This document shows, piece after piece, positions 1 to 36,291 of a stretch of 64,000 bases of DNA. The DNA comes from Bacteroidota bacterium (GTDB lineage: Bacteria > Bacteroidota > Bacteroidia > Chitinophagales > Chitinophagaceae), in contig JAFDYG010000537.1 in the NCBI GenBank assembly GCA_018267545.1, positions 1-64,000 on the forward strand, written 5' to 3'. Position numbers and translations under genes: made by a program. The notes under the pieces are model-generated. The model had not been told where the DNA came from, made no database searches, and worked only from the letters and a program-made list of their open reading frames with translations. Numbering within the stretch: the first letter of the stretch is position 1; each line of letters begins with the position of its first letter.

Positions 1-316
1 CCGTATTGACGGGAAAATCCATAAATATCCCCCCATCCCACCCAGGCTCCCTGCCCTCCTGCACGCTCGCCTCCGTGGCCAAAAAATCCGTAATCCTTCG
101 ATGAACACGCTCCAATAGCCCACTATCTTCCCGCATCCCCGGCGATAAAGCCAGTCCTATATGTTCTCCCCTATCCTTTCCCAGCCGCAAAAGAAAATGT
201 TCGACAACCTCCTCTTCTTCCAACAACGGCTGCAAACACTTCCCTAATAGCCTATGCCATTCCCCCCTCGGAAAGAACACAGAAATATTTATCCATTTAA
301 GCGCTAAAGATTCCAT
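1..316 (-). CDS. SpaB_C-like (thiopeptide-type bacteriocin biosynthesis) protein, 3' end outside window
   Basis: The reading frame is open from an ATG at 316 to the window edge (105 codons), so the C-terminus is missing. The N-terminus reads WINISVFFPRGEWHRLL, then an acidic stretch, then EHFLLRLGKD and EHIGLAL. This W-I-x-V-x-F start, followed by a chain-of-hits like 'FxR..HI.L', resembles the SpaB_C / thiopeptide-type bacteriocin biosynthesis domain. That domain forms the C-terminal elimination part of LanB enzymes and also exists as separate proteins in Bacteroidota RiPP clusters. The ATG lies 2 nt after the stop of the glycosyltransferase gene, so it is the last visible gene of the transporter/tailoring operon. 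The full-length LanB at 7911-11006 has its own such domain, so this would be a second copy. Family assignment is by pattern only. Confidence 0.6.
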   Translation of the reverse strand, partial: MESLALKWINISVFFPRGEWHRLLGKCLQPLLEEEEVVEHFLLRLGKDRGEHIGLALSPGMREDSGLLERVHRRITDFLATEASVQEGREPGWDGGIFMDFPVNT

Positions 317-318
317 AG

Positions 319-1329
319 TCACATAAGAAAAATAGAAAAAGAAAAATTTTGATATACTCGTGCCCGCCCAAACCCATCTCCATTCACCACCCTCTCTCCT
401 GACTCCATTTTAAGCCGGTTGGAAACCTGAGAATATAGCAGCACCACTTCTTCAATCCAGTCCATCCGGCTTATACGACGCAGTTCCTTCCCCCTCTCGA
501 CGCTTTCCCCGAAACACAGCTCGAGCCCATCCTCATCTTCTCTCCAATACCCCATTCGAAGGGAATAGGCTGCAACCCCGACACCTCCGCGCATCCCCCG
601 TCCAAACGCCGGCCGACCCGAATCGCCGGTAAACGACAGCAATGAACCCGAATGAACCCTGCCATCCTTCAACAATAAAAAGAACTCCGAGGTCTTAATA
701 TCGATATACCTCACCATCAATCTTTCCAGCCGGCTGAATAAATATTCATTCGCAACCCGCTCTCCCACCGTATGCGAAATAGCACGCAGATAGGTAGGCT
801 CAGAAATCGGACACTCCCGCAAACCCGCCCTCTTCAGCCTTGCGAACAGATCGTAATCCTCGAACCCATATCCCTCCAGCGCCTCATCGAACCCACCCAC
901 AGCCAGAAAATCCGACTTCCGCACACACAGCCGTCCCAGCACACCACAATCGGAAGACCCCGCAGCCGTAAAAAAAACGCTCCCCCCAAAATCAAAGCCC
1001 GCACCAATCCATTGCGCAAAACCTTCCCCCGTATAATTATCCGCGTCTATATTACAAACGATCTCCCCCCTCGCAAGCCGGAAAGCCACATTGCGCGAAT
1101 GACTCCGCCTGAACCACTCCGGCTCCGTAGTCCGGTAATACACCAATCTTCCAGCCTTAACCCATTCTCTCAATTCCTTCATCACATACTCCTCCGTCCC
1201 ATCCGTACTATTATAGTCCAGCAGGACGAATTCCAGATCGGGATAATCCCGGTTGGCTTCCAGGTTGGCCGGCAGCGTCTGAGCCAGGTGATGAAGCCTG
1301 TTCATACAAACCGTACAAAAAGAAATCAT
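319..1329 (-). CDS. Family 2 glycosyltransferase in the lanthipeptide cluster
   Basis: A GT-A fold glycosyltransferase of about 336 aa. It begins MISFCTVCMNR, and the frame continues upstream as a non-homologous extension into the previous gene. The ATG at 1329 was chosen because it starts exactly at the conserved first beta strand and lies 4 nt after the upstream stop. Visible motifs are LLDYNSTDGT (nucleotide-binding), the DxD-like NIDADN (metal and UDP-sugar binding) and GFEDYD, typical of the acceptor/catalytic region of galactosyltransferase-type GT2 proteins. There is no membrane segment, so it is probably cytoplasmic. It follows PCAT, HlyD and FkbM genes in one tight operon, so it could glycosylate the lanthipeptide (as SunS-type GT2 enzymes do on Cys or Ser) or, less interestingly, belong to surface-glycan synthesis. 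The substrate is inference. Confidence 0.85.
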   Translation of the reverse strand: MISFCTVCMNRLHHLAQTLPANLEANRDYPDLEFVLLDYNSTDGTEEYVMKELREWVKAGRLVYYRTTEPEWFRRSHSRNVAFRLARGEIVCNIDADNYTGEGFAQWIGAGFDFGGSVFFTAAGSSDCGVLGRLCVRKSDFLAVGGFDEALEGYGFEDYDLFARLKRAGLRECPISEPTYLRAISHTVGERVANEYLFSRLERLMVRYIDIKTSEFFLLLKDGRVHSGSLLSFTGDSGRPAFGRGMRGGVGVAAYSLRMGYWREDEDGLELCFGESVERGKELRRISRMDWIEEVVLLYSQVSNRLKMESGERVVNGDGFGRARVYQNFSFSIFLM

Positions 1330-1333
1330 ATTC

Positions 1334-2293
1334 TCATTTGTAAAATAAAAGATCGGCGGCCATACCGCTTCGATACATCCCCTCCAGCCGCGAAAGAATC
1401 TCCGCCCCCTCATAAATACGCCATGCACCCCTCACCGCCTCATCGGCAACAATCATCTTCATAAAATATCGCAAAATATTCTCCGTAAATTCCTGCACCC
1501 CGACCTTTCCGATATTGTCCAGGTGATGCGGGACGAATTCGATATACAGCACGCGAGCATTCTCCAGGCAGGCTTGACCACCCAGCAGAGCATTGAATTC
1601 AGCGCCCTCGATGTCCATCACGATGACATCCGGATAGTCGAGCGATTCCTGTTCCCGGACCTTATCCAGCAATTTACCGCTCACAGTAACGACATCCGGC
1701 TCGTCATAATCGTACAGGTAATTCCCCGCAGCCGGTCTTATTTTGCTCCCCCCCGAGTTTGCCTTGCTATTATAAAAAAGAATGTCCTCCTCCCGGTCAT
1801 AAAGCGCATAGTTATAGACCTTGATATTATCCCGCTTATTCAAAACCACATTCCACTGAAGAAGGGCAAAGGTGGAAGGGCTCGCCTCGAACGCATATAC
1901 CTGCCTCACCTTCCTGCTCAAAGGGATCCCCACCGTTCCGATATGCGCCCCTGCTACATATAGCACATCCCCTTCTTTAAGCACTCCCTGCAAAAATTCG
2001 ATCTTTCGATGATCGTACGCCCCCCAGTTCCCCAGGTGCTGGCTGATCTCTACATCCGCGACACCATTAATCAGCACTCCATTGTAAGAATCGAAGACCA
2101 CCCCTGCAACCCTCTTCCCGAAAAGATTGTGGCAAAGATATTCCTGCATCCGGCTCTTGAGCCGGATGATCTCCAGCCGGCTCCGCTCCATCCTGTTTTG
2201 CCTCGACGGCGACGGCGGAGCCTTCATCATCCTCTTTCTCCTGAACAAGAGCCATTTCATTTTGATCGAATCGATCAGGAAGGTCAGGATCAT
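1334..2293 (-). CDS. FkbM-family SAM-dependent methyltransferase
   Basis: A 319-aa protein. A poorly conserved basic N-terminus (about 80 residues) precedes a Rossmann methyltransferase core. Motif I is VLYVAGAHIGTVGI, followed by the acidic strand end VYAFEASP that would contact the SAM ribose. The FkbM signature VMDIEGAEFNALLGG lies at about residues 225-240. FkbM enzymes usually O-methylate sugars or polyketides. The start codon overlaps the stop of the HlyD gene as ATGA (2290-2293), which indicates translational coupling with the exporter. The gene is directly followed by a glycosyltransferase, so methylation of a peptide-linked sugar is one reading. Target unknown. Confidence 0.85.
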   Translation of the reverse strand: MILTFLIDSIKMKWLLFRRKRMMKAPPSPSRQNRMERSRLEIIRLKSRMQEYLCHNLFGKRVAGVVFDSYNGVLINGVADVEISQHLGNWGAYDHRKIEFLQGVLKEGDVLYVAGAHIGTVGIPLSRKVRQVYAFEASPSTFALLQWNVVLNKRDNIKVYNYALYDREEDILFYNSKANSGGSKIRPAAGNYLYDYDEPDVVTVSGKLLDKVREQESLDYPDVIVMDIEGAEFNALLGGQACLENARVLYIEFVPHHLDNIGKVGVQEFTENILRYFMKMIVADEAVRGAWRIYEGAEILSRLEGMYRSGMAADLLFYK

Positions 2294-3600
2294 TCGTTCC
2301 TTTTTAACAGTTTGGTAAATTTGTACATAAACCGCTCCGACAACCGCATATCTTCCGTCACGATCGCAGCAGTCCCTATCGACTGCTCCTTATAAGGAAT
2401 CTCCTTTCCCATATCGCTGATAAGCCCCCTGACCAGCCGGATTGAGACATAATACATCCCATCCTTCGGCAGGGTCGAAATGCTCTGGACCTCTCCCCGG
2501 ATAAATCCATACTCCTCCGAAGGAAAATTCGTCATATCGATGGTTACCCGCTGCCCCGCCTTGACCTTCCCCGACCCCTGGATGGGCAGCATGACATAGC
2601 CCATCAGCGACTGATCTCCCGTCGGGCTCACATTCATCACCTCCTGTGCCGATTTGACAAATTGGTTATCGCTCCTAAGCTCGAATAAAGTCACCCTGCC
2701 CGAAATAGGACTGACGAATAAATACTGCTGCTCCCACAAAAGAAACCGCTTTTCCATTTCGATAAAGCTGCTCAGTATTCTATTTTTAAGGTCGTTCGCA
2801 TACCGGGATTCCGAAAGCCTGAGATCCGCACGCCGGCTATCCAGCTCCAGAAACCGCAATTCGTTCATTTTCTTGTTTTCATCCATGGTGCTGATCGCCG
2901 CCTGCATAGGGATATAGCTGTTACGCGAATTTTCGAGGTCCTGCTGCGAAAGCACCTTCTCCTTGAAAAGAAAGGAATCCCTTCCCAGCCGCAGCTCTCC
3001 GATCTTCCGCTGCTGCTCATACAGCTCCGCCTGACTGCGGATCCGCTCGTCGATGACACCATAGATCTTCTGCTGTCCACTGAGATTGTCCAGGTTCTTA
3101 TTCAGATTGTTTTCCCGGACGTAGTGCTTATAATCATTGACATTGTTCTGAAAGCTGATATACGTGTCGTGCAGCTCCCCCAGTCCCAGATCCCCTGTGT
3201 TGGGAATGGCAGCAAAATCCCCTCTCAATATCTTCGAGCTAAAAGTATCCCGCAATGACATATAGGTAAGAATCGCCGAAAAATCGGCCGTATTTTCGAT
3301 GAATCCCATGACCTGCCCCCTCCTGACCGAATCCTTGTCCCCAACCAGCAGCTTGAGCCGCCCCGTCGCCATCGAGACCATCTTCACGGCAGGCTGGGAC
3401 GAGGTAAGGACGAAGTTACCCCGGACTATGTCCGGATACCGGATGAACCAGGAGATGAAAAGCGTAACGGCCATCAGCAGGAACAGCGAAAGCGTCCCCC
3501 ATCTGACAATCCACACCGGAGGAGTGCTCATGATCGTCTGGACCTCCCGGGCATATCTCTTTACATCGAATAAGGTTATATCGGCATTTTCCTGTGGCAT
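2290..3600 (-). CDS. HlyD-family membrane fusion / periplasmic adaptor protein
   Basis: A 436-aa adaptor of peptide-exporting ABC systems. Residues 1-29 are cytosolic, a single membrane helix spans about 30-50 (LSLFLLMAVTLFISWFI), then a barrel-sandwich half-motif with ATGRLKLLVGDKDSV, a long helical hairpin (about 120-280), and the second lipoyl half with PISGRVT. It would link the PCAT exporter in the inner membrane to a TolC-like outer-membrane channel. The gene starts 1 nt after the PCAT stop and overlaps the FkbM start, so it belongs to one operon with both. No TolC homologue is visible in the window. Confidence 0.92.
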   Translation of the reverse strand: MPQENADITLFDVKRYAREVQTIMSTPPVWIVRWGTLSLFLLMAVTLFISWFIRYPDIVRGNFVLTSSQPAVKMVSMATGRLKLLVGDKDSVRRGQVMGFIENTADFSAILTYMSLRDTFSSKILRGDFAAIPNTGDLGLGELHDTYISFQNNVNDYKHYVRENNLNKNLDNLSGQQKIYGVIDERIRSQAELYEQQRKIGELRLGRDSFLFKEKVLSQQDLENSRNSYIPMQAAISTMDENKKMNELRFLELDSRRADLRLSESRYANDLKNRILSSFIEMEKRFLLWEQQYLFVSPISGRVTLFELRSDNQFVKSAQEVMNVSPTGDQSLMGYVMLPIQGSGKVKAGQRVTIDMTNFPSEEYGFIRGEVQSISTLPKDGMYYVSIRLVRGLISDMGKEIPYKEQSIGTAAIVTEDMRLSERFMYKFTKLLKRNE

Positions 3601-3601
3601 A

Positions 3602-5782
3602 TCAGGCTAAAATTTCGGTTTGCTTCTTCACCAGGTCGTAATAATGGTCCCGCTTCGCGATCAACTCTTCGTGCCGCCCTATCTCCACGACCTTCCCATC
3701 TTCCAGCACGATGATCTGGTCCGCATGCCGCACCGTACTCAACCGATGCGCTACGACCACTACGGTTCTGTTCTTACAAAACGTCTGCAGCTTGTCCAGT
3801 ATCTCACCCTCATTCTTCGAGTCCAGCGCATTCGTCGCTTCGTCCAGCATGATAAAAGCAGGATTGCGATAGACGGCCCTGCTGATCAGCAGCCGCTGTC
3901 GCTGTCCCTGGCTGACACCTACCCCGTCCGGACCGATCTTCGTATTATAAGCCTGCGGCATCGAACGGATGAACTCGGAGATATTCGCAATCTCAGCCGC
4001 ATTCTCCAGCTTGTCCAGCGATATGTCCTCGTCCCCCACCGCTATATTCTCCGCAATGGTATCGGAAAAAATATACCCATCCTGCAATACCGCCCCACAA
4101 TGGTCCCGCCACGCTCTATGACTGATCGTCTCCAGGTCGAAATTCCCGATAGAGACCCTGCCCTTCGTAGGTGAATAGAATTTCAACAACAATTTCAAAA
4201 CGGTCGTCTTTCCGCTCCCGCTGCCCCCCACGATCGCCGTGACTTTATTCTCCGGTATGGTGAAGGATACGTCCTTCAAAACCATCTGCTCGGCCGACCC
4301 ATTGTACGAGAAGCTGACCTTCTCGAACCGGATAGTCCCCGAGCTCGGAAGCTGGTTCTGTAGCCACCCGTCCCCCTTTTCCTCGTTCTCCGTAGCATGG
4401 ATCTCCCCTATACGCTCCAGGCTGATCGTCGCATCCTGGTACGAGTTGATCAGCCCGATCATCTGGCTGATGGGCGCCCCGATCTGCCCCAAAATATATT
4501 GTATCGACAGCATCATACCCAGCGTGATTTTCCCTTCGACAACCAGCCTGGCCGATAAATACGAAATAATGACACCCTTGGTCGTCTCTATCAGAAATCC
4601 TCCCCCCGACTGAAACTGGCTAAGCACAAGCTGCTTGATGCTCAGCCGGAAAGTCGCCGCCTGCAGTCGCTCCCACTCCCACCTTTTCTTTTCTTCATAG
4701 TTATGCTGCTTGATGTCCCGTATACCCGTAAGCAGCTGAATCAGCGTATTCTGCTTTTGCGAGCTGCGCTGGAAGAATTTGTAATCGAATTGTCTCCTTT
4801 GCTTTAAAAAAAGAATCACCCACACCGTATACACCGCACTGAACAGCAAAAAGATGAGCAGGATAGTGGGGCTGTAATAGGCCATGATGCCGGAGAAAAT
4901 AAAGAAGTTGAGCAGCGAGAATAAAGTACTTAGCGTCGCCGCAGAAATAAATCCCTGAATCCGCCCATGATCTCCAATTCGCTGCATGATGTCCCCCATC
5001 ATCGTCTTCTCGAAAAAAGACATCGGCAGCTTGAACAGCTTGATCAGATAATCCGAGATGATGGCGATATCGATTCGGGTGCCTACGTGCAGAAAGATCC
5101 AGCTCCGGACGAAGTTCAGCACCGTGCTGCTCACGGAGAACATCAGCTGGGAAATAAGAACCAGGTTGATGAACCCGATATTTTTATTGACGATTCCCAC
5201 GTCGATGAGGGACTGATTGAGAAAGGGCAGAATAAGCGTAAAGCCCATCGACACCAGCATACCCAACATCAGCTGTACATAGTACTTCTTGAAAGGCAGC
5301 AGATAATTCAGAAAGAACCGAAAGCCTATATAATTCTTCTTCTCCTCTTCTTCCACATAGAGACGCGGAGTCGGCTCCAGCACTAAAACAATACCCACGC
5401 TCTCTCCGCTTTCGTTCGACCAGCCTTCGATAAAATCGGCATGAGAATAAGTAAGTATTCCAGACGCCGGATCCCCGACCGTCACCGTCTTTTTTCCGAT
5501 CTTATAAACTACGACGAAGTGATGGCCCCTCCAATGAACGATACAAGGCATCTCCGCAGTCGACAAATCCTCGAAGCTGACCCTGGCATACAGGCTCCTG
5601 AAACCTATATCCGTCGCGGCATTGCTCAGCTGCCAAAGCGATACGCCTATCTTTCCGCTATAACACTTTTTCCGCAGATGCTCCTGGGAATAATGCTTGC
5701 CATACTTCGCCGCAATCATGCGAAGACAGCTGGCGCCGCAGTCCATAATGTTCAGCTGACTATAAAAAGGATATCTGCCCAT
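3602..5782 (-). CDS. lanT: Peptidase-containing ABC transporter (C39 peptidase + membrane + ATPase; PCAT)
   Basis: A 726-aa bifunctional exporter. The N-terminal C39 cysteine protease (about 1-130) shows the oxyanion Gln9, the nucleophile Cys15 in MDCGASCL, catalytic His88 in RGHHFV and Asp104 in VGDPASG. This domain cleaves leaders after a double glycine. A six-helix ABC membrane domain follows (about 160-450). The C-terminal ATPase has Walker A GGSGSGKTT, signature SQGQRQRL, Walker B FIMLDEA and an H-loop His in VVVAHRLS. All catalytic residues are present. It is the first gene of the minus-strand operon and is divergent from two precursor genes whose leaders end in YGG, which is a good match for its specificity. 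Confidence 0.96.
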   Translation of the reverse strand: MGRYPFYSQLNIMDCGASCLRMIAAKYGKHYSQEHLRKKCYSGKIGVSLWQLSNAATDIGFRSLYARVSFEDLSTAEMPCIVHWRGHHFVVVYKIGKKTVTVGDPASGILTYSHADFIEGWSNESGESVGIVLVLEPTPRLYVEEEEKKNYIGFRFFLNYLLPFKKYYVQLMLGMLVSMGFTLILPFLNQSLIDVGIVNKNIGFINLVLISQLMFSVSSTVLNFVRSWIFLHVGTRIDIAIISDYLIKLFKLPMSFFEKTMMGDIMQRIGDHGRIQGFISAATLSTLFSLLNFFIFSGIMAYYSPTILLIFLLFSAVYTVWVILFLKQRRQFDYKFFQRSSQKQNTLIQLLTGIRDIKQHNYEEKKRWEWERLQAATFRLSIKQLVLSQFQSGGGFLIETTKGVIISYLSARLVVEGKITLGMMLSIQYILGQIGAPISQMIGLINSYQDATISLERIGEIHATENEEKGDGWLQNQLPSSGTIRFEKVSFSYNGSAEQMVLKDVSFTIPENKVTAIVGGSGSGKTTVLKLLLKFYSPTKGRVSIGNFDLETISHRAWRDHCGAVLQDGYIFSDTIAENIAVGDEDISLDKLENAAEIANISEFIRSMPQAYNTKIGPDGVGVSQGQRQRLLISRAVYRNPAFIMLDEATNALDSKNEGEILDKLQTFCKNRTVVVVAHRLSTVRHADQIIVLEDGKVVEIGRHEELIAKRDHYYDLVKKQTEILA

Positions 5783-5952
5783 CGTAAATCAAATTAGGGA
5801 TTTTATTCGACGCATTGAAAAAAAACAAACCATAGCGCAACCTCCGCGCAGTTTCACGGCAACAAGTATATGCTATTATGTATTTCATTTTGTTTAGCAA
5901 AAACGCCGGCAATATTCTTTCCTATATTTAGAATACTTAAACTTTATGCCAA
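5783..5952. promoter_or_regulatory. Divergent intergenic region between exporter operon and precursor genes
   Basis: This 170-bp AT-rich spacer must hold promoters for both directions. Toward the precursors, 5923-5930 reads TATATTTA, a 7/8 match to the Bacteroidota -7 consensus TAnnTTTG, about 20 nt before the first precursor ATG. No clear -33 TTTG element lies at the usual distance (TTTTG at 5888-5892 is too far). Toward the exporter, only loose matches are seen. Regulatory protein sites could not be identified. Confidence 0.35.
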
Positions 5953-6174
5953 ATGAAAAAGAAAAAGCTGCTGCTTAATAAAATCACCGTTAGCAATCTC
6001 TCCGAAGACATCGCCAAATCCATCTACGGCGGAGGCGCAACAGACCCTTCCTATCAGTGTACCATGGCAACCGCATGCGGCCAGACCTGCGACCCCGCGG
6101 CCTGCTACACAAACGCCGCCTGCCCCGGCTATGGCCCACAGGCCACCTACGACGAGCCAACCTGCCACCACTAA
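5953..6174 (+). CDS. lanA1: Class I lanthipeptide-type precursor peptide 1 (6-Cys core)
   Basis: A 73-aa precursor. Residues 1-27 are a leader starting MKKKKLLLNKITVSNLS and ending IAKSIYGG, matching the Bacteroidota class I lanthipeptide leader (pinensin type: Lys-rich start, L-x-KxTIxxLs, terminal GG). The probable core, residues 28-73, has Cys at 36, 42, 46, 51, 57 and 71, plus one Ser and seven Thr, so up to six (methyl)lanthionine rings are possible. The C-terminal end is TCHH. It lies divergent from a C39-peptidase transporter and upstream of LanC and LanB. The core is much longer than the roughly 22-residue pinensins. Ring pattern and activity cannot be told from sequence. Confidence 0.9.
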   Translation: MKKKKLLLNKITVSNLSEDIAKSIYGGGATDPSYQCTMATACGQTCDPAACYTNAACPGYGPQATYDEPTCHH

Positions 6175-6185
6175 ACTCCTCCGCC

Positions 6186-6242
6186 ATGAAAAAACACCTG
6201 AACCATCCCAAGTCTTTCACCTTTAAATTTTATCTGCAATGA
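6186..6242 (+). CDS. 18-codon ORF overlapping the precursor 2 start (doubtful)
   Basis: An ATG at 6186 opens a short frame, MKKHLNHPKSFTFKFYLQ, whose TGA (6240-6242) overlaps the ATG of precursor 2 (6239) as ATGA. If translated it could couple translation of precursor 2 to ribosomes coming from upstream. It has no recognisable homology and may be chance. Confidence 0.2.
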   Translation: MKKHLNHPKSFTFKFYLQ

Positions 6243-6577
6243 AAAAGAAAAAGCTCCTGCTGAAAAAAATCACTGTCAGCAACCTCTCCGAAGAAGTCGC
6301 CAAGTCCATCTACGGTGGAGACATGCCCACCTATGGCACCAACTGCAGTTATTCCTGTACGCCCAACAACACCTGTCAGGCTACCCAGCGCGACTGCGTC
6401 ACCTACGACTGCCCCAGCGGGCCCAACCAAAACACCTGTACCTACAACGGCTGCCAGAACACCGTAACGAAAACTACCAATTCGCCCTGCTTCTCCCAAT
6501 GGGCTAATTGTACCTATACACAGTGTACCGACATAAAAAACACTTGTCAGGCGACTTACACGGACCAGACTTGCTAA
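6239..6577 (+). CDS. lanA2: Class I lanthipeptide-type precursor peptide 2 (85-residue, 12-Cys modular core)
   Basis: A 112-aa precursor. Residues 1-27 repeat the leader of precursor 1 and end IAKSIYGG. The core, residues 28-112, has Cys at 36, 40, 46, 53, 58, 67, 72, 84, 91, 96, 103 and 112, with 19 Thr and 5 Ser, and the last residue is Cys. The core is built from repeated units: NC(S/T)Y..C at 35-40, 65-72 (as NTCTYNGC) and 90-96, and NTCQAT..D..C at 44-53 and 101-112. It is exceptionally long for a lanthipeptide. Alternative readings are disulfide-rich export or partial modification, but the adjacent LanC and LanB favour thioether formation. Confidence 0.88.
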   Translation: MKKKKLLLKKITVSNLSEEVAKSIYGGDMPTYGTNCSYSCTPNNTCQATQRDCVTYDCPSGPNQNTCTYNGCQNTVTKTTNSPCFSQWANCTYTQCTDIKNTCQATYTDQTC

Positions 6578-6599
6578 AAGATCTAACCAAAAAAACTTC

Positions 6600-6624
6600 A
6601 AAGGCTAATGTTTCATTAGCCTTT
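6600..6624 (+). terminator. Perfect hairpin between precursor genes and lanC (probable attenuator)
   Basis: An 11-bp perfect stem, AAAGGCTAATG (6600-6610) with CATTAGCCTTT (6614-6624), closes a 3-nt loop, 23 nt after the precursor 2 stop. It is not followed by a T-run beyond the stem's own TTT, so termination is probably partial. Such stems often keep precursor mRNA in excess over modification-enzyme mRNA or protect its 3' end. Confidence 0.7.
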
Positions 6625-6647
6625 GATCACCTTATTCAAAATCAACC

Positions 6648-7886
6648 TTGGAAAATCTGACCACCTACATACAGTCTCCGGAGACGGCCAGCCAAAAAAT
6701 ACACGCCATCGAACGAAAAATCGCCGAAGGCCTTCGCAATGGCGAATGGCAGCACATCGGCCTGTGCAGCGGCATCTCCGGCCCTCTCCTTTTCTATCAC
6801 AACCTGTATAAATTGACAGGAGAGGAAACTTATTATGATCGGATGGAACAACTCCTTGCCTCTATCTTCGACGATTACAGGATAGACCCGAACATGGTCT
6901 CCCATTGCAGCGGCATCTCCGGCCTGTCGTGGACCATCGGCTTCCTTATTCGACAGGAAGCCATCGATCCCTCCGTTTACGAAGCAATTCAGGAAACCGA
7001 ACAGCTCCTCTACCTGAAGATGATGGAGACCCTGAGTACCGGCGTCTACGACTTCCTGCACTTCGGTATGGGCATCTTCTACAACTTCCTGATCAACGAC
7101 CTTGTCACGCTGGACAAAGACCAGGTAATCAGGACAGTAGCCGACACGCTATCCCGTATCGCAATACAGGAAGGAGACGGCATCAAATGGTGCGATTACG
7201 ATATGGAAAAACACGTCCTGATGCCTGACTCTTTCAACTTTGGACTTGCGCACGGCATTCCCGCAATCGTTTCACTCCTTTCGAAAGCCGTATCCGCGAC
7301 ACAGGATCGCACCCTTCAGGCTGATCTCATTCGCCTCGCGGAAGGCGGGGCCGCTTATCTATACGCATATAAATCGTCCCAACCCGATACGCTCTCTCTT
7401 TATCCCTATTCCGTGACCGGCGGCAAAGCGCCCAGCTACACATCCCGCCTGGGCTGGTGCTATGGAGACCAGAGCATCGCAGCATCGATGTGGCAAGCAT
7501 TCGGGGCCACGGGTAATTCTCTTTGGAAGGAAGAGGCCCTCGCTATCATGCGGCATTCTGCCCAAAGAAGATCGATGCAGGAAAACTCGATCGCTGACGC
7601 CGGTCTTTGCCACGGTACCGCAGGTATCGCCCACCTATACCGGCGATTTTACCTGCACCACCCCGACCCCCTCTTTGCCGAAACCGCCCAGTGGTGGGAC
7701 ACCCGAACACTCGAAGCCGCTTGTTACACGGACGGCTTTGCCGGTTATAAGACCTATTACAGAACCCATGGATATTCGAACGTGTATGGCTTTCTGGAAG
7801 GAATCACCGGCATTGGCCTGAGCCTGGTCGCATCCCTCGATCCGGAACGCTGCAGCGACTGGGACAAGGCATTGCTTTTCTCCTGA
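6648..7886 (+). CDS. lanC: LanC-type lanthionine cyclase
   Basis: A 412-aa (alpha/alpha)6-barrel zinc enzyme that adds Cys thiols to dehydrated Ser/Thr. Repeated glycine motifs are visible (GLCSGISGPLLF, VSHCSGISGL, GLAHGIPAIVSLL, GFLEGITGIGL). The zinc ligands are Cys271 (GWCYGD), Cys321 and His322 (GLCHGTAGIAH). Length is normal for LanC. The start is TTG at 6648, because an in-frame stop lies at 6624-6626 and the next ATG is far inside the domain. A TTG start after a hairpin suggests low expression relative to the precursors. The gene ends 24 nt before lanB. Confidence 0.94.
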   Translation: MENLTTYIQSPETASQKIHAIERKIAEGLRNGEWQHIGLCSGISGPLLFYHNLYKLTGEETYYDRMEQLLASIFDDYRIDPNMVSHCSGISGLSWTIGFLIRQEAIDPSVYEAIQETEQLLYLKMMETLSTGVYDFLHFGMGIFYNFLINDLVTLDKDQVIRTVADTLSRIAIQEGDGIKWCDYDMEKHVLMPDSFNFGLAHGIPAIVSLLSKAVSATQDRTLQADLIRLAEGGAAYLYAYKSSQPDTLSLYPYSVTGGKAPSYTSRLGWCYGDQSIAASMWQAFGATGNSLWKEEALAIMRHSAQRRSMQENSIADAGLCHGTAGIAHLYRRFYLHHPDPLFAETAQWWDTRTLEAACYTDGFAGYKTYYRTHGYSNVYGFLEGITGIGLSLVASLDPERCSDWDKALLFS

Positions 7887-7910
7887 TCACAAAAATGAAC
7901 GATTCTTAGT

Positions 7911-10900
7911 ATGTCATTCCAATCCGATTTTTTTGTACTGCGCACTCCCCTGTTACCCTTCTCTACACTCCGGCAATTGAAAGATCTTCCGGAAATGATG
8001 GCCGTATGGCTCGAAAATCCGCTTTTCCTGGAAGCGATCTATATCGCCTCACCCGATCTTTACCAGCAGCTGCTTCGCTGGCAGCTCGGAGAAGTCCAAA
8101 AGGAAAAAGAAATCAGGAAGCTGCAGGAAGCCTTCTTCGAATACATCACCCGCATGTCCTTCCGCTGTACCCCCTTCGGCCTGTTCGCTGGATGCACGCT
8201 CGGAACCTTCGGAGACAGGAACGACATCCGCTTCCCCGCACAGGGTCACCTCCTCCGTCACATGCGGCTCGACATGGATTTCTCTACCATCCTCTTTCTA
8301 CATTTCATGAAAGACCCGGCCATCTACCGAACTCTCAGGTACCAGGTCAACAACAGCCTCTACAAAGCAGCCGGGGCCTATCGCTATACCGAATATCGGT
8401 TCGTCGCAGGAAGCAGACGAAGCCACCATCTCGTCAGCATCGGTTCGACTCCCGTACTGAATAAAATAATAAAAGCCGCCGCCGTCAGCATCCCTTACGC
8501 GGATCTCCTGACGATAATCACAGCCATGGGCTACGATCAGGAAGACGCAATAGACTACCTGGACCAGCTCATCCAGTCGCAGGTCCTTACGAGCGAGATC
8601 GAACCCAACGTCACCGGCCCCGACTACGTAGAACGCCTGATTACCGTATTGGACAGGGTCGGAGCTGCCCGCTCACCGCTTATCGAAAAGCTCAGGTCGA
8701 TGCAAACCCGCATCCGAAACATAAACCAGGACCCGGAAAAAACCACCTTTTATCGCAGCATCTTCGAAGACTGGCAAAAAGAAGGGCTCAATCTCCACAA
8801 AAGCCACTTATTCCAAATCGATCTATATAAAAACGCCGACAGCTGCATGCTCGACCCGGGCATCCGCGAAAAAGTTTCCAAAGGCGTCGAAGTCCTGTCG
8901 AAGATCACTCCGGTCAGGATAGACCACCCGAACATGCAGGTCTTTAAACGGGCCTTTTACGAACGATACGATAACAGAATGGTTCCCCTGACCGAAGCGC
9001 TCGACTCCGAAGTAGGTATCGGCTACCGCAAAGCACGGAGCCTGGCGGATACTTTCAGAACGGAGAGCGGCATCGAATTCGACTCCCGAACCGAGTTCGT
9101 CTTCCGCAAGTTCAAGTCATGGCTGGCAGAAAAAGAAAAGCATATCGACCTCTCGGATGAAGACCTCGAACCATTCGAAGATAAGCTCTCCACCATCGCC
9201 GGCTCCATCGGCGTTACGATTAATCTTATCCGCGAAGACGGTCAGGAAAAAGTAGTGCTGCGAACCGTCTCCGGACCTTCCGGGGCCAATCTCCTCGGAC
9301 GCTTTGCGCACACCGTCCACGAGCTGGAGCAAGGACTCCGGCAATTGTGTGAAAAAGAAGCAGCGCTGCAGCCCGAACGGCTTTTTGCCGAAATAGTTCA
9401 CCTCCCCGAAGGCCGCATGGGCAACGTGCTTGCCCGTCCTGTCCTTCGTCAATACGAGATCCCCTATCTCGCCGCTTCCCCGCTGGACCCCGAATACCAG
9501 GTGCTCATCAGCGACCTCTATCTCTTTATCCGTAACCAACGGCTGGTCCTTTACTCGAAACGACACCAGAAAGAAGTCGTCCCCCGCCTTTCCAGCGCTC
9601 ACAATTTCACCAACGGCCTACCGCTCTATAATTTTCTTTGCGACCTTCAGTACGAAAGCCTCCAAACCGGCATCTACTGGAACTGGGGCTTCCTCGGCAG
9701 CGAAGCCCGCCTGCCCCGCGTACAATATAAAGACGTCATCCTTTATCCTGCTTCATGGAACCTATACAAAAAAGTCCTCGACGAGATGGCCGCACTCAAA
9801 GACGCCAAAGACCTGCCCGCAGCATTCACCGCCTTCCGGGAGAAATACGGCATCCCCGATCAGGTCGTCTTCTGCGAGTCGGACAACCGCATCTGGCTCG
9901 ACCTCAAAGACGAATATCCCATCCGCTACCTGATCAAACAAGCCCAAAAAAATGGACGCATACACCTGGAAGAAAACTTCTGGCATTTTGACGACCAGCC
10001 TTTCACCAACGAGATCATCATTCCCTTCGTCCGTGAAGCAGTTTCCGACGAAACTTCCGTCGCCCCTATCGTTACGGAGAACAAAGTACAGCGTATCTTC
10101 TCTCCCGGATCGGAATGGCTTTATTTTAAACTATACGGCTCTCTCGGCTCGACCGACCGCCTCCTCAACGAGCAGCTGTTCCCCCTGCTCGGTAAGCTAA
10201 AACGCGAACGTGTCATCGACAAATGGTTTTTCCTCCGCTACAGAGACCCCAAGGACCATCTCCGCATCCGGCTTCACATCCCGGACAGCACGCAAATAGG
10301 CGCCATTCTGCAAAGAATATACAACCGGTGTAACCGGCTGCTGCAAACCGGTGAGATCGCCAATATACAGCTGGACACCTACACCCGCGAGATAGAACGC
10401 TATGGTTCGGAAACCATGAGCCTGTCCGAGGACTATTTCTGTATCAATAGCGAAATGACGGCCCAGCTCATGAAGCTGCTGGGGGCAACGCTGGAAGGCG
10501 ACCTTCCCATGTACGCCGTCATCCTCGGAACAGAATCTATCCTGAACGCCTTTGGCTATACGCTGGAAGAAAAGATCGAATACGTAAAAAAGAATATGGC
10601 CATCCGCGATCTGAGCAAGTCCGAAAAGGAATCTATCGCCGCTTATTACCGGGACCATAATAAAATTATCTATGCGCTTCTAGCGGAAGACTGGGCCTTC
10701 CTTAGCGACACCTCCATTTCGGTCAAAGCGCTCCGGACCATATCCAAAATCTGCCGTCGCTCGGCCGCCAGGCTATCCCCCATCGCCCGCTCCATCCGAA
10801 CCGCCGTCGCAGGCCAGCCGGACAGGCTCGACCAGCTGATGGGCAGCTATATCCATATGTTCGTAAACAAAAGCTTCTCCGATTACCAGCTGGAAAAAGA

Positions 10901-11006
10901 GTACCGGCTATACGTCTTCCTGAACAAGCTCTATCCATCGATCAAGGCTCGCACGAACGCCCCTCAGCCAAAACCCCAATTGATCACTCCCTTATCATCC
11001 GTATAG
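7911..11006 (+). CDS. lanB: Full-length LanB-type lantibiotic dehydratase
   Basis: A 1031-aa enzyme, the usual length for full LanB. Residues about 1-690 are the tRNA-Glu-dependent glutamylation domain, with the conserved RCTPFGLFAGCTLG at 85-98 and LVLYSKRHQKEVVPRLSSAH near 545-565. Residues about 735-1010 form the SpaB_C elimination domain, starting GSEWLYFKLYGS and containing WFFLRYRDPKDHLRIRL. It would activate Ser/Thr of the precursor cores with glutamate and eliminate it to give dehydroalanine and dehydrobutyrine for LanC. It is cotranscribed with lanC. Its last 23 nt overlap the 3' end of the convergent S41 peptidase gene. Confidence 0.95.
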   Translation: MSFQSDFFVLRTPLLPFSTLRQLKDLPEMMAVWLENPLFLEAIYIASPDLYQQLLRWQLGEVQKEKEIRKLQEAFFEYITRMSFRCTPFGLFAGCTLGTFGDRNDIRFPAQGHLLRHMRLDMDFSTILFLHFMKDPAIYRTLRYQVNNSLYKAAGAYRYTEYRFVAGSRRSHHLVSIGSTPVLNKIIKAAAVSIPYADLLTIITAMGYDQEDAIDYLDQLIQSQVLTSEIEPNVTGPDYVERLITVLDRVGAARSPLIEKLRSMQTRIRNINQDPEKTTFYRSIFEDWQKEGLNLHKSHLFQIDLYKNADSCMLDPGIREKVSKGVEVLSKITPVRIDHPNMQVFKRAFYERYDNRMVPLTEALDSEVGIGYRKARSLADTFRTESGIEFDSRTEFVFRKFKSWLAEKEKHIDLSDEDLEPFEDKLSTIAGSIGVTINLIREDGQEKVVLRTVSGPSGANLLGRFAHTVHELEQGLRQLCEKEAALQPERLFAEIVHLPEGRMGNVLARPVLRQYEIPYLAASPLDPEYQVLISDLYLFIRNQRLVLYSKRHQKEVVPRLSSAHNFTNGLPLYNFLCDLQYESLQTGIYWNWGFLGSEARLPRVQYKDVILYPASWNLYKKVLDEMAALKDAKDLPAAFTAFREKYGIPDQVVFCESDNRIWLDLKDEYPIRYLIKQAQKNGRIHLEENFWHFDDQPFTNEIIIPFVREAVSDETSVAPIVTENKVQRIFSPGSEWLYFKLYGSLGSTDRLLNEQLFPLLGKLKRERVIDKWFFLRYRDPKDHLRIRLHIPDSTQIGAILQRIYNRCNRLLQTGEIANIQLDTYTREIERYGSETMSLSEDYFCINSEMTAQLMKLLGATLEGDLPMYAVILGTESILNAFGYTLEEKIEYVKKNMAIRDLSKSEKESIAAYYRDHNKIIYALLAEDWAFLSDTSISVKALRTISKICRRSAARLSPIARSIRTAVAGQPDRLDQLMGSYIHMFVNKSFSDYQLEKEYRLYVFLNKLYPSIKARTNAPQPKPQLITPLSSV

Positions 11007-13287
11007 CAGCTTCCAGGAACTCGTCCCTTCCCTCCTGCAACCCCTTGACCGTGACCTTCATCGGCACATCGATTCGCACGCCTACCCGCTGTGTCTCTCC
11101 TCCATCCGGATAATAAATACCAAGCCCCGAAATCATAGTCAGCACATTGCCCGGAAACCATAGATAGGAAACATTCCCATCGGCTCCCGCAGTCGTGCTC
11201 CCCACAACCCGTACATTGGGAGCAGATTGAAACGCCATCGTCGTGTATTCCGCCCGGCTTTGAGTATTGGCGTCCACCAGCAGGATTACCCGGCCCTTAT
11301 AAACCTGCTCCGGTTCCGTAGAATCTTTTCCCGCTCCCCAGTTTCCGCCATTTTCAGAAGGTGGCCCCGCAGACATGCACCCCGGCCTCCGGGTATCTAC
11401 CGAAGTAGCAAAAGCAAAGGCGCTCCTTTCCGCCTTTAGCCAGGAAGCATAGTTAAATACCATAAAAGTAGAAGGATAGTAACGAAGATCGATGACAAGC
11501 CCCCTGGTGCCCTCCACCTCCTTCCTTACCCGGGGAAAATCCTGTGGCGACAGTCGGTCCGGCCGGATATACCCGACATCGGACCCAATACGATCTACCC
11601 CCTTGCTCCCCAGCTTCAGCACCTCTTTCACCCAATGCTTATCATCATAGATTCCTATCCCGGGCAGACGAACCGTTCGGATCGAATCCCGATACTCCCA
11701 CTCGAAGTCCGACTCCGGCCGGTTGCTCCGCAGCAGAAACCCTGAAGAAGAAGGCAGATCCCTCAGTTGTGCCGCCTCATTGGAAGCCGGTGTAAACGGC
11801 AGGAACTTCCGGACAAGACTATCCGTCGATACGCCATTGATGGACCGGATGATTGCGCCCAATGGCAGCAACCGCCGAATGTCCGGCGAATCTACCAGGT
11901 ACCGGGTCACGACAAGCCTTCCTTCCGCAAATACCGCCTCGAAGGGCGCACGGTAACGGCCCTTGATGGAATCAAGATCGGTCCGTTGATTCCAGATATT
12001 GGCGTGCGTATCGTGGATATGTCCGATCAGCTCCAGACAGCTCAACACATACTCTCCTGAATCTCTTGCCCCCAGGAAACGCGGCAGATACCCGGCCAGC
12101 ATCGTGTTCCAGTCTTCTTTGATCAGATAACGGTAAGGATAGTAGTACTGTATGGTATTCCAATACCGATAAAGACCGAGCAAACGGATCGCCGCCGCCG
12201 GATAATTGCTGGAACGATATTTTTCTTCGTGAATGAATTCCATGTACCCGCCGGCATAGCTTACATAATAGCTGTTCCTCTTAGCTACGTGGTTTTCACG
12301 AATCCGGACCAGCTGCTCCCTAAGCCGCTTGGGAAATCGTCCCTGATCGAAAAGAAAACCATAGTTACCCGGAACTTTTATATCCGACGAATCCGTCAGA
12401 ACGCAATTCTTACATTCCGGTATTTTCCCCAGCTGCCGAATCCAGCGCTCCTCCAGCTCATAAGCATGTTTATCGTCCGGCGCCTTTACGATCGACGGTA
12501 GTATCCGAAACAACGCAGAATCCCAGTCATACTTCCCTTCCTCTATCGCAGGGTGATAATATTTTAAAAAACCCCACAGCATACCCAGCTCGACAAGCCG
12601 CTTCATCCCTTCGGGCGAAAGATCCGTCAAAGCCGCCGAAGCAGTCTTCCCCAAACTCTCCGCAGAACCAGGATCACTGGCTGCCAGCTTATACTGAAGC
12701 GATTCCAGAGGACGTCCATCGACCCGTGCCTGCAGATTTCCAATCCAGGCTCGCCCATTACCCGTTAAAATACCGATGATATAAATATTGTCCCCGGAAA
12801 CAGGATCGATAGGCAGCTTGAGGAAACGGCGCGTCCAGTCGTGCGTACCCGACTCTCCGTCCACAACCATCGCACGATAGCTCACTTTTTGCCCTTGCTT
12901 ATCCAGCACCATCGCGATCAGTCCGGCAGTCCCCTGCGTAACCCCTTCCGTCTTTATCGACGCCGAAAACTCCAGCGTATCTCCTCTTACAGGCAGCGGC
13001 AGAAACCGGGCGAAAACTTCCATCGTATTGGGAGTGCTGTCTTTCTTACGCATGCAAAACGCCGCATATCCCTGCCCGCGAGCGGCCGAATCCAGAAATA
13101 TGTCATAATGAGAAACCGAATCCGGTGTAAGCCTCCACCCGGTAGGATGATTGGCGCTGTCCAATGCCCGAAAATCAAGATTCAGCAGCCGTCTCTTGCT
13201 ATGACGTACACTCGAACATGAAATAAAAAAGAGGACACAAAAACCCGACAGCAATAAAAGGCAGGATCGATCTTTCAGTAAGGTCAT
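10984..13287 (-). CDS. S41-family peptidase lipoprotein
   Basis: A 767-aa protein with a lipoprotein-type signal (CVLFFISCSS), so it is probably anchored in the periplasm or outer membrane. An N-terminal beta-sandwich-like region (about 30-190) has no clear assignment. The middle (about 220-430) includes LGMLWGFLKYYHPAIEEGKYDWD, split here by its helical pattern, a motif common before S41 domains of Bacteroidota. The C-terminal third has the S41 core: VILLVDANTQSRAEYT carries the nucleophile Ser, preceded by DLRYYPSTF. S41 enzymes cut unstructured C-terminal or loop regions. The 3' end overlaps lanB by 23 nt in convergent orientation. A role in lanthipeptide maturation is possible but not shown; it may be housekeeping. 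Confidence 0.85.
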   Translation of the reverse strand: MTLLKDRSCLLLLSGFCVLFFISCSSVRHSKRRLLNLDFRALDSANHPTGWRLTPDSVSHYDIFLDSAARGQGYAAFCMRKKDSTPNTMEVFARFLPLPVRGDTLEFSASIKTEGVTQGTAGLIAMVLDKQGQKVSYRAMVVDGESGTHDWTRRFLKLPIDPVSGDNIYIIGILTGNGRAWIGNLQARVDGRPLESLQYKLAASDPGSAESLGKTASAALTDLSPEGMKRLVELGMLWGFLKYYHPAIEEGKYDWDSALFRILPSIVKAPDDKHAYELEERWIRQLGKIPECKNCVLTDSSDIKVPGNYGFLFDQGRFPKRLREQLVRIRENHVAKRNSYYVSYAGGYMEFIHEEKYRSSNYPAAAIRLLGLYRYWNTIQYYYPYRYLIKEDWNTMLAGYLPRFLGARDSGEYVLSCLELIGHIHDTHANIWNQRTDLDSIKGRYRAPFEAVFAEGRLVVTRYLVDSPDIRRLLPLGAIIRSINGVSTDSLVRKFLPFTPASNEAAQLRDLPSSSGFLLRSNRPESDFEWEYRDSIRTVRLPGIGIYDDKHWVKEVLKLGSKGVDRIGSDVGYIRPDRLSPQDFPRVRKEVEGTRGLVIDLRYYPSTFMVFNYASWLKAERSAFAFATSVDTRRPGCMSAGPPSENGGNWGAGKDSTEPEQVYKGRVILLVDANTQSRAEYTTMAFQSAPNVRVVGSTTAGADGNVSYLWFPGNVLTMISGLGIYYPDGGETQRVGVRIDVPMKVTVKGLQEGRDEFLEAAIRMIRE

Positions 13288-13394
13288 AAGGTTTAATTGG
13301 ACCGACTAAGATATCGCATTCACCCAACAAAGCAAGACCGCACCCCAGCCGCAGTACCATCCAAAACGGGGAAAAAATATCTTAAAAATTTTTA

Positions 13395-13402
13395 TATATT
13401 TA
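13395..13402 (+). promoter_or_regulatory. Possible -7 promoter box for the PD-(D/E)XK gene
   Basis: TATATTTA matches TAnnTTTG at 7 of 8 positions and lies 8 nt before the ATG at 13410. If used, the transcript would be leaderless or nearly so, or the true start would be the second ATG at 13422. No convincing -33 element was found. Confidence 0.35.
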
Positions 13403-13409
13403 CCCCTCA

Positions 13410-14636
13410 ATGGCAACCCATATGCCCCCTACCTCTGACGACTCGATAGCCGGAACCCCTATCTCGAAGATTAGAAAAATCTTCAGATTCAATCGGCGGA
13501 TTGGTGTCAACTCGACCCGGACGTTCGGCGTCGAATACCTCGAAGAAGAATTCGACATTTCCAGGGCCAAAGCAATGGAAATGATACTCGGCCTCCAACA
13601 GCTGGGCTATTTAAGTCAGAAGCCCGACAAAGATGAATATTACAGTATAACCGAAAAAGGAAAACTATTTGGACTCGAAAAGGCCAACCCACCGCTATCC
13701 ATCGACAAGGCCGACCAGATTTACGCCGAATTTCTGGAAAGAGTCCGCCAGGTCAACGAAAACCCCGATTTTATCCTCCGCATCACCGACTTTTATTTGT
13801 TCGGAGACTATATTACCGGAAACGGATCCATCACCCACCTGGAAATCTTGTTATCGATGGTTCCCAAAGACCCTGCTTCCTTCAGCGCCCAGCGGGAAGC
13901 CAAAATGAGAGCACACCCCCGCTTTCTCGGCATCTTCGAACGATATGCCCTGCCTCTTACAGAAGTACGGTCTTTTCTTAAGCAACGGTCCAGATACCTG
14001 AGCATTTATCTGCCCAGGGAGAAAGAAGAGCTCGACCTGTCCGAGGCAAAAATATTCGACCCTGACGGCAACCTGATAGAAGAAAAAAAGACCAAAAGCA
14101 AAAAAACATCACAGCCGCCCAAAACCAATAGAAAAACAAAGGAAAGACCCACCGATGAATTTGTAGGAAGACTGATCTTTAACGAGCGAAAAGGCAAATC
14201 TTCAAAAGAACAGATCGTAAGAAAATTTACCGAGAAAGCCCAGGAGCAGGAAAATCTCCACGGGCAGATCATGGACGGGCTGACCACGCTGCTACGCGCT
14301 CAACACCCCAGCTGCACCATCAGCCCGGAATGTATGATAATGGGACTGGGTTCCAGAATAGACATCGTCAGAAAAACTAAAGAAGATCAGGTCATCTTCT
14401 ACGAGATAAAAACCTATCCCAAAGCCGCCATCTCCATCCGTATGGCCCTCGGCCAGCTCCTCGAATACGCCTTTTACCCCGAACGTCCCTTCACCGGCGA
14501 GCTCTGCATCGTCAGCCACGTGCCCGCCACAAAAACCGACCTCACCTATCTAAAGCACATGGGCGAAAAGATCGGTATAAAAATCGGCTATATTCACTAC
14601 GATTGTTCGACCAACAAAATCGCCCAGATCGCCTAA
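13410..14636 (+). CDS. Winged-helix / degenerate nucleotidyltransferase-like / PD-(D/E)XK nuclease-like protein
   Basis: A 408-aa protein with three parts. Residues about 30-85 look like a winged helix that reads DNA (EEEFDISRAKAMEMILGLQQ, then a beta wing ending YYSITEKGKLFG). Residues about 105-150 contain ITDFYLFGDYITGNGSITHL, which resembles the GSxxxG..SDxD core of a minimal nucleotidyltransferase, but with the catalytic Gly-Ser and Asp positions changed, so probably inactive. A charged Lys-rich linker follows (about 220-260). Residues about 275-400 form a restriction-endonuclease-like core with Asp318 (SRIDIV), Glu332 and Lys334 (YEIKTY) and GQLLEYAF. The combination points to a sequence-recognising nuclease, perhaps in defence or DNA repair. 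The flanking genes give no partner. I do not recognise a named family. Confidence 0.7.
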   Translation: MATHMPPTSDDSIAGTPISKIRKIFRFNRRIGVNSTRTFGVEYLEEEFDISRAKAMEMILGLQQLGYLSQKPDKDEYYSITEKGKLFGLEKANPPLSIDKADQIYAEFLERVRQVNENPDFILRITDFYLFGDYITGNGSITHLEILLSMVPKDPASFSAQREAKMRAHPRFLGIFERYALPLTEVRSFLKQRSRYLSIYLPREKEELDLSEAKIFDPDGNLIEEKKTKSKKTSQPPKTNRKTKERPTDEFVGRLIFNERKGKSSKEQIVRKFTEKAQEQENLHGQIMDGLTTLLRAQHPSCTISPECMIMGLGSRIDIVRKTKEDQVIFYEIKTYPKAAISIRMALGQLLEYAFYPERPFTGELCIVSHVPATKTDLTYLKHMGEKIGIKIGYIHYDCSTNKIAQIA

Positions 14637-26543: not shown

Positions 26544-27590
26544 CTACTCCCCTCCCGGCCCCCTCATCTCCACCCCCACCTTCACCGGCGTCCCAAAATC
26601 CGGCGTTCCATCGCCCTTCCACCCAAACCTCTGCATCCTCGGACTCCTCGCATTCCCACACCCCGCACCCGCCACAGCATTCGCATGATACAAAACCCAA
26701 TTCTCCTTCCCATCCTTCGAAACAAAAAATCCATTATGTCCCGGCGCATAAACCCCATTCTCCGCAACACCACTAAAAACCGGCTGAGCCGACTTCGTCC
26801 AGTCCTCCGGCCTTAACGGATCCCCACCCCTCCGCAACGTCAACAATCCCAAACAATAATTATCCGTCCAGCACCCACTCGCCGAAAACGTCAAAAACAG
26901 CTGCCCCTTCGGCCCAATCAACGCCTCCGGCCCCTCATTGACCGCCGGCAATCCACCCTGCATCCCCATCCTCTCCCACGTATACGTCGGTGCAGAAATC
27001 AAAACCCTCCGCCCGTTCAACGTAACCGGGTCAGACATCTCCGCAATAAAAATATCCTGCTCCCCATTTGTCGCACCCTTCCACCCCGACCAAACCATAT
27101 AAAGCTTCCCCCCGTACCCAAACACACTCGCATCGATCGCCCACCGGTCCTCCACACTATCCGCCACCTTCCCCCTAAAGTTCCACTTCCCCGATAACGG
27201 ATCGGCAGAATCATTCTCGACCACATAAATCCGATGATTATCATTGGAACCATCATCCGCCGCAAAATACATATACCACTTACCCTGAATATTATGAATC
27301 TCCGGCGCCCAGATCTCCTTCGAATAAGGACCACTCGCCGGCGGCGTCCAAACAACAACCGGCGAAGCCGACCCCAGCCGCGACATAGCCGGCGTAGCCC
27401 ATATCCCCAACCGATTTCCCAGCGTATGCGTATAGTAGTAAGTATCCCCCTTCTGCACCACCCAGGGATCAGGCCCCCCGCGCAAAATCGGATTCATAAA
27501 AGTCGTATCCGCCGCCCCGGAACCGCCAGGAACCACACCCGCACCACAGCAAGCCGCCGCCATCATAACAGAAACAAATAAATTTATCAT
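26544..27590 (-). CDS. GH43-family arabinan endo-1,5-alpha-L-arabinosidase-like enzyme
   Basis: A 348-aa exported protein (N-terminal signal with a possible lipobox MAAAC). It forms a five-bladed beta-propeller. The three GH43 acids are visible: base Asp41 in GGPDPWV, the pKa-setting Asp153 in WAIDASVF, and the acid Glu near 219 in VNEGPEAL. The stretch SKEIWAPEIHNIQGKWYMYF is typical of the family. It would hydrolyse arabinan or short arabino-oligosaccharides; the exact subfamily is not certain. Together with GH54 and the galactan genes downstream it points to rhamnogalacturonan-I side chains as the target. Confidence 0.9.
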   Translation of the reverse strand: MINLFVSVMMAAACCGAGVVPGGSGAADTTFMNPILRGGPDPWVVQKGDTYYYTHTLGNRLGIWATPAMSRLGSASPVVVWTPPASGPYSKEIWAPEIHNIQGKWYMYFAADDGSNDNHRIYVVENDSADPLSGKWNFRGKVADSVEDRWAIDASVFGYGGKLYMVWSGWKGATNGEQDIFIAEMSDPVTLNGRRVLISAPTYTWERMGMQGGLPAVNEGPEALIGPKGQLFLTFSASGCWTDNYCLGLLTLRRGGDPLRPEDWTKSAQPVFSGVAENGVYAPGHNGFFVSKDGKENWVLYHANAVAGAGCGNARSPRMQRFGWKGDGTPDFGTPVKVGVEMRGPGGE

Positions 27591-27715
27591 ACCCGAATAT
27601 ACTGATAATTACACACCCACCCACCTACCGCCAACAACAACCACTCATCCCATTTCCCTCCCGCCGCTTTTACCTTCCCGTAAGTTCGCAGTCAGAAGAA
27701 GAAACCTCCTTTACT

Positions 27716-33060: not shown

Positions 33061-33139
33061 CGGCAACCGCAATTGTTTTATCAAATTTAGGCGCCCCCCG
33101 GCGATTTTCCGCATAACATCGCCTACCAAGGCCCCATTT

Positions 33140-36273: not shown

Positions 36274-36291
36274 AAAACTAAACGAATCAAC

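Follow-up and report, generated by a model that had tools for sequence, protein, structure and literature searches.

A class I lanthipeptide gene cluster with large, cysteine-rich precursor cores in a member of the Chitinophagaceae

Gene content and arrangement of the locus

The sequence analysed here, a stretch of 64,000 nucleotides (hereafter the window) from contig JAFDYG010000537.1 of a Chitinophagaceae genome (Bacteroidota; assembly GCA_018267545.1), carries at its left end what is almost certainly a class I lanthipeptide (LANTHIPEPTIDE) gene cluster; it is complete in its core enzymes and of a kind already known from the Bacteroidetes, in which leaders end in Gly-Gly (GG) and a C39 peptidase is present. 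Four genes follow one another on the forward strand, separated by gaps of 64, 70 and 24 bp: the precursor LanA1 (5953–6174; 73 amino acids (aa)), with a 27-aa leader ending in GG and a 46-aa core containing 6 Cys, 7 Thr and 1 Ser; the precursor LanA2 (6239–6577; 112 aa), whose 85-aa core contains 12 Cys, 19 Thr and 5 Ser and includes an internal repeat; the cyclase LanC (6648–7886; 412 aa, TTG start); and the dehydratase LanB (7911–11006; 1031 aa), which unites glutamylation and elimination domains in a single chain.

Diverging from lanA1, the reverse strand carries a C39-peptidase ABC exporter (3602–5782; PF03412, PF00664 and PF00005 over cut-off), expected to cleave at GG and export the products, followed by genes for a HlyD-like membrane fusion protein (2290–3600), an FkbM-family methyltransferase (1334–2293), a family 2 glycosyltransferase (319–1329) and the first 107 residues of an open reading frame (ORF) weakly resembling a LanB elimination domain (2–322). 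Intergenic distances among these five genes, the exporter included, run from -4 to +4 bp, which suggests a single operon. The first base of the window is the end of the contig (C485), and the left side of the cluster is therefore incomplete. Genes, domains, conserved residues, leaders and layout are all legible in the sequence itself.

Biosynthetic enzymes and leader peptides

The preliminary description of this stretch had listed two precursors with GG leaders, a LanC with all its zinc ligands, a full-length LanB and a C39 exporter in one divergent locus, and all were recovered by Pfam and ORF analysis, including the LanC ligands C271, C321-H322 and H202 and the lengths and Cys counts of both cores. 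The HlyD partner that it had named held up as a HlyD-like protein, but its match to TIGR01843 (E=1.3e-17, 63.9 bits) falls short of the cut-off (208.65), and none of the Pfam models for HlyD exceeded its own. LanB matched PF04738 (E=4.5e-142) and PF14028 (E=3.4e-59), both over cut-off, LanC matched PF05147 (E=1.4e-36) and the peptidase domain of the exporter matched PF03412 (E=3.8e-30). The zinc motifs of LanC align with those of the solved LanC-like protein 8byk, and its best NCBIfam match was a LanM model at 61.8 bits against a cut-off of 304; in the pinensin type, LanC is related to the cyclase domains of LanM enzymes (family I 17).

When 22 positions of NisB were compared, 15 were identical in the window LanB, among them R14, R83, R87, T89, D121, D299, R464, R784, R786, E823 and R826, of which R464 and E823 are presumably functional. 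The seven which differ (122, 295, 302, 304, 468, 789 and 790) are neighbouring positions, none of them selected as catalytic. All nine compared positions with mutant data (R14, R83, R87, T89, D121, D299, R784, R786 and R826) are identical; such data are given for R14, R83, R87, T89, D121, D299, R784, Y80, W616 and H961 (PMC4341554) and for R786, R826 and H961 (PMC4979651). Two further residues of the window LanB, Y78 (aligned with NisB Y80) and H982, are invariant across 11 LanBs; H982 sits in the motif IHMFVN and is likely the counterpart of NisB H961.

The leader of LanA1 scored 25 bits with NF038153, the class I lanthipeptide leader model (cut-off 22), and that of LanA2, which has 24 of its 27 residues in common with the leader of LanA1, scored 23.2 bits in a genome search. 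Both leaders match LxLxKx5L exactly. A number of Bacteroidetes class I precursors have this leader motif, many of them ending in GG, and their clusters often include a C39 protease (Walker et al., 2020, PMC7268733); as motif, GG and C39 are already in print, the kind of cluster is known. A pinensin type, the label given in the preliminary description, was rejected. Pinensins are class I lanthipeptides reported from Chitinophaga (Mohr et al., 2015) and are made with a split LanB (PMC7268733), whereas the window LanB is one chain of 1031 aa, and the label therefore fails on a defining feature.

Size and cysteine content of the cores

Precursors for comparison were drawn from 80 named LanB loci, which are the best 80 of 539 confirmed relatives and to which all counts out of 80 below refer, from LanB matches in 27 of 294 genomes of the same family and from leader matches in 7 of 98 relatives; the loci from genome searches carried only about 1.5 kb of flank. 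The leader model was home-made from 123 seeds, each required to have GG or GA and at least two Cys, and Cys-poor precursors are thus under-sampled. The 33 of 186 unique sequences that lacked a GG-type end were excluded, which left 153, LanA1 and LanA2 included; the core start was set by a simple rule, and some cores are therefore too long.

Across these 153 precursors the core had a median length of 33 residues (maximum 86) and a median of 4 Cys. LanA2 has the most Cys (12, with 11 in three others) and the second-longest core, while cores of at least 46 residues (29/153) and with at least 6 Cys (28/153) place LanA1 in the upper fifth and LanA2 at the tip of a continuum. The cores had earlier been called unusually large, a judgement which stands for LanA2 as an extreme but not for an isolated case: 11 other cores also have at least 8 Cys, and 8 of these 11 come from a single genome, G033, which supplies 27 of the 153 precursors and accounts for 19 of the 28 cores in the class of 6 Cys or more. 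The LanA2 core is therefore extreme yet not isolated. Pinensin is reportedly a short peptide with two rings, in contrast to the window cores, which measure 46 residues with 6 Cys (LanA1) and 85 residues with 12 Cys (LanA2).

Within the LanA2 core, the segment NCSYS-CTP-NNTCQATQRD aligns with NCTYTQCTDIKNTCQATYTD at a score of 53, reached by 4 of 200 shuffles, and the core has probably been enlarged by internal duplication. The local score of the LanA1 core against the LanA2 core was 40, a value given no weight here.

Genome G033 itself (loci L006, L011, L015, L018-L033, L048, L172, L175 and L176) has 46 NF038153 leader matches on nine contigs, against no more than 2 Lant_dehydr_N and 4 LanC matches. 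The two LanBs lie on contig C33, together with 3 of these leader matches. The arrangement resembles a many-substrates system in the style of the prochlorosins, but of class I, and a literature search, by titles only, found no class I system of this kind. In Chitinophaga solisilvae (L116), 20 leader-bearing precursor ORFs precede LanC, LanB, a C39 exporter and HlyD.

Spacing of cysteine and hydroxyl residues

The placement of Cys was assessed by pairing each with its own Ser or Thr 2–6 residues upstream, as in common lanthionine rings, the distance being our own choice. In LanA1 all 6 Cys could be paired (shuffle mean 3.2), which 6 of 500 shuffles reached, whereas downstream pairing gave 3 Cys, reached by 347 of 500. 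The same pairing in 99 further cores, each with 4 Cys or more, exceeded shuffles by 0.263 of Cys in the upstream direction and by 0.030 in the downstream one; leaving out G033 (73 cores) gave 0.221 and -0.001, and control ORFs (200 of 383) gave 0.019 and 0.001. The cores are mutually related, and the p-values are therefore too small. For the 11 cores, LanA2 apart, that have 8 Cys or more, the excess was 0.388 upstream and 0.218 downstream, so that the direction test is less telling for very Cys-rich cores. As judged from residue spacing, a Cys placement suited to thioether rings is real for the group of precursors and clear for LanA1, while for LanA2 it is only suggestive.

Related LanB loci

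In a FastTree phylogeny of 96 LanBs (local support values, no bootstrap), the window LanB groups with that of locus L064 from Pedobacter yonginense (local support 99), which is also its closest relative (36% identity) among the 80 loci, and this pair joins L077, L065 and L067 (local support 99). Long precursors containing Cys occur at four of the five loci of this small clade: besides those of the window, L064 has one of 94 aa with 8 Cys, L077 one of 115 aa with 11 Cys, and L067 two, of 116 aa with 6 Cys and 115 aa with 3 Cys, both counted from TTG and therefore slightly long. No precursor was seen at L065 because its contig starts inside an S41 gene before LanC. L077 and L067 have the same divergent layout as the window, with the exporter on one strand and precursor, LanC and LanB on the other; as judged by eye, without a family search, each has a LuxR-type regulator between the two and a TolC-like gene after LanB.

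L064 shares with the window LanC, a C39 exporter, HlyD and a Cys-rich precursor. It differs in having its exporter on the LanB strand, in the single precursor found and in the lack of an FkbM match, and of its two family 2 glycosyltransferases within 19 kb one matches that of the window, only at E=1e-4 over 155 residues.

The genome from which the window comes has a second cluster (L160; C406:24000-42000), with a precursor of about 82 aa and 5 Cys, LanC, a C39 exporter, HlyD and a LanB 34% identical to that of the window. A third, more distant LanB (28%) lies at L161 (C382:60000-79000), where no LanC or leader match was found within the 19 kb read.

Extension of the exporter operon

A new finding is that the exporter operon continues into the FkbM, glycosyltransferase and elimination-like genes; these, together with a 13-bp hairpin described below, lie within the segment covered by the preliminary description and were not mentioned there. 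The FkbM-family protein matched TIGR01444 at 87.2 bits (cut-off 37.7) and PF05050, and its gene overlaps that of the HlyD-like protein by 4 bp. The glycosyltransferase exceeded the cut-offs of PF10111, PF00535 and PF02709; its likely start is the ATG at 1329, the ORF opening with a GTG at 1428.

The ORF cut by the contig end bears a weak likeness to PF14028 (17 bits, cut-off 24.4) and matches an ORF of L072 (E=2.9e-6). Once aligned with its relatives from L072, L162 and L163, its family reached an hhalign probability of 50% (E=1.6e-4, 120 columns) against LanB C-terminal domains, whereas none of the three relatives matched PF14028 (those of L162 and L163 whole, that of L072 cut by the end of the locus) and only one of the four family members matched in NCBIfam, at E=0.23. 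The ORF itself was the only match in its own genome, and no homologue was found in the 394 other phylum genomes drawn, though L072, L162 and L163 have relatives. Full-length LanBs accompanied by an additional homologue of the elimination domain have been reported, with a different reaction suggested for the homologue (Walker et al., PMC7268733).

The glycosyltransferase and elimination-like genes occur as a pair elsewhere. In L072, a Mucilaginibacter metagenome-assembled genome (MAG), they are adjacent on the strand that carries LanB, three ORFs after the C39 exporter of a lanthipeptide cluster; in L162, which has a split LanB, they follow the exporter and LanC; and in L163 (G135) the pair is present with no LanB match in 19 kb. 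Homologues of the glycosyltransferase were found near LanB at 2 of the 80 named loci (L072 and L090), and none of FkbM at any of the 80 (phmmer, E<=1e-4). L072 also has two mutually similar genes flanking LanB (6991-7947 and 11135-12106), luciferase-like monooxygenases as judged by eye, and two LanC-like genes preceding LanB.

Discussion

From the families to which these enzymes belong, dehydration, cyclisation, cleavage and export can be proposed to run as follows. LanB, using glutamyl-tRNA, would glutamylate and then dehydrate Ser and Thr residues of both cores, and the zinc-dependent LanC would couple Cys thiols to dehydrated residues located upstream. Most Cys would thereby become part of (methyl)lanthionine rings, numbering at most 6 in LanA1 and at most 12 in LanA2. 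The C39 exporter and its HlyD-like partner would then cut after Gly-Gly and export the products, together with a TolC-type channel presumably encoded at another locus. Peptides of this kind usually act against competitors. We consider it probable that most Cys of both cores end in thioether rings.

Several results weigh against this reading. In LanA2, 11 of 12 Cys could be paired upstream (shuffle mean 8.5), a number reached by 41 of 500 shuffles, and downstream pairing gave 10 Cys, reached by 139 of 500. With hmmscan the LanA2 leader scored 21 bits, slightly below the NF038153 cut-off of 22. The NisB mutants D121A and D299A show little effect (PMC4341554), and both residues are therefore weak markers; the NisB alignment ends before H961, so that the equivalence of H982 is only inferred. 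A homology search with both cores, as the preliminary description had proposed, gave no clear homologue: blastp against 1,498 small ORFs (4 or more Cys each) taken from the collected loci returned nothing convincing, the best matches (E=0.014 and 0.028) being one Taibaiella gene present in two loci (L048 and L172). Nine of 395 phylum genomes matched at E<=0.01, that of the window among them; of the eight others, loci L178 and L183 were read, and the best match outside the window (E=1.6e-5) was to L178 (genome G412), a Cys-rich GG peptide with no LanB within the 3.2 kb read. Plasmids gave no match.

Some of these results would also suit lanthipeptides which are only partly ringed, the remaining Cys, mainly those of LanA2, being free or disulfide-bonded after export. 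The upstream pairing of LanA2 does not clearly exceed that of its shuffles, the cores with at least 8 Cys show a downstream excess as well, and ChmA and RuiA, the two relatives described below, take seven dehydrations and form three rings (PMC9993889). Yet all 6 Cys of LanA1 find a partner, as in very few shuffles, and no thiol oxidoreductase family was found among the ten proteins scanned (window 322-14633); we thus regard partial ringing as unlikely. A further step away would be secreted peptides held by disulfides, with LanB and LanC inactive or acting elsewhere. L178, which lies beside a VKOR/thioredoxin-like protein (by eye), is a possible disulfide counterpart of this sort; but in the window lanA1, lanA2, lanC and lanB are consecutive on one strand with short gaps, the functional residues of LanB and LanC are intact and both leaders belong to the class I lanthipeptide type, all of which makes this explanation highly improbable.

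The extra genes of the exporter operon pose a separate question, since FkbM, the glycosyltransferase and the elimination-like protein could serve a surface glycan or another pathway instead of the peptides. The pair at L163 stands beside a pyruvyl transferase with no LanB match nearby, the genome of the window has four further glycosyltransferase homologues, with no LanB match in the three stretches read, and FkbM homologues were found at none of the 80 LanB loci. Against this, the tight spacing binds all five reverse-strand genes to the exporter, and two more lanthipeptide clusters (L072 and L162) have the pair downstream in the same orientation. The chances of a role in another pathway thus seem to us to fall slightly short of even, and that the three proteins decorate the peptides is a guess. 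The boldest version, a giant polycyclic lanthipeptide with an 85-residue core of up to 12 rings that arose by core duplication, is glycosylated and carries O-methyl groups on sugar or peptide, the glycosyltransferase/elimination-like pair forming a portable decorating module, is unlikely as a whole.

The window cluster has the leader motif, GG site, C39 exporter, LanB and LanC of the Bacteroidetes group (Walker et al., 2020, PMC7268733), from which it differs in that the LanA2 core stands at the top of the range found here and the exporter operon adds FkbM and a glycosyltransferase. Two Bacteroidota class I systems with LanA, LanB and LanC like those of the window, RuiA of Runella limosa and ChmA of Chryseobacterium, have been produced in Escherichia coli (PMC9993889; RuiA also PMC9576775), where dehydration was improved by a Bacteroidota tRNA-Glu/GluRS pair (PMC9993889, PMC9576775); each has three rings, against 6 and 12 Cys in the window cores. 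PedA15.2 of Pedobacter lusitanus NL19, another class I lanthipeptide of the phylum (Bothwell et al., 2021), had its leader removed in the laboratory by the C39 protease LahT150 (PMC12328550). The preliminary description had held that the cores would give products far larger than those described for the group: the cores are indeed larger and richer in Cys than RuiA and ChmA, but its picture of the group was incomplete, with leaders, GG and C39 already in print and members already made in E. coli. A literature search limited to open-licence papers, and for most of them to the search listings, met no characterised Bacteroidota lanthipeptide with more than three rings.

Few lanthipeptide products have been characterised from this phylum. 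Should the mature LanA2 be a chain of 85 residues bearing about a dozen thioether rings, it would probe the length of substrate that LanB and LanC are able to process in order. For the attachment of sugars to class I lanthipeptides, the glycosyltransferase/elimination-like pair offers a concrete candidate open to testing. The cluster combines one extreme precursor with a possible sugar-decorating module.

Other features of the window

Between lanA2 and lanC lies a perfect 13-bp stem with a 3-nt loop on the forward strand (6598–6626; -17.5 kcal/mol, z -7.8), and none of 200 shuffles folded as well. There is no T run on the forward strand, the hairpin being terminator-like on the reverse strand only, and it may therefore act in mRNA processing, stability or attenuation instead of terminating transcription. 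A putatively Bacteroidetes-like promoter pattern had no matches.

Converging on lanB, an S41-family peptidase is encoded on the reverse strand (10984–13287; PF03572, 44.2 bits), whose membership of the cluster is uncertain. Homologues were found at 4 of the 80 LanB loci (L065, L083, L086 and L095), directly upstream of LanC in the first three, and S41 peptidases near LanB loci are possibly maturation or immunity proteins. Further along, window positions 26544-38984 hold a polysaccharide-use locus with GH43, a hybrid two-component sensor, a SusC-like TonB receptor, SusD and SusE.

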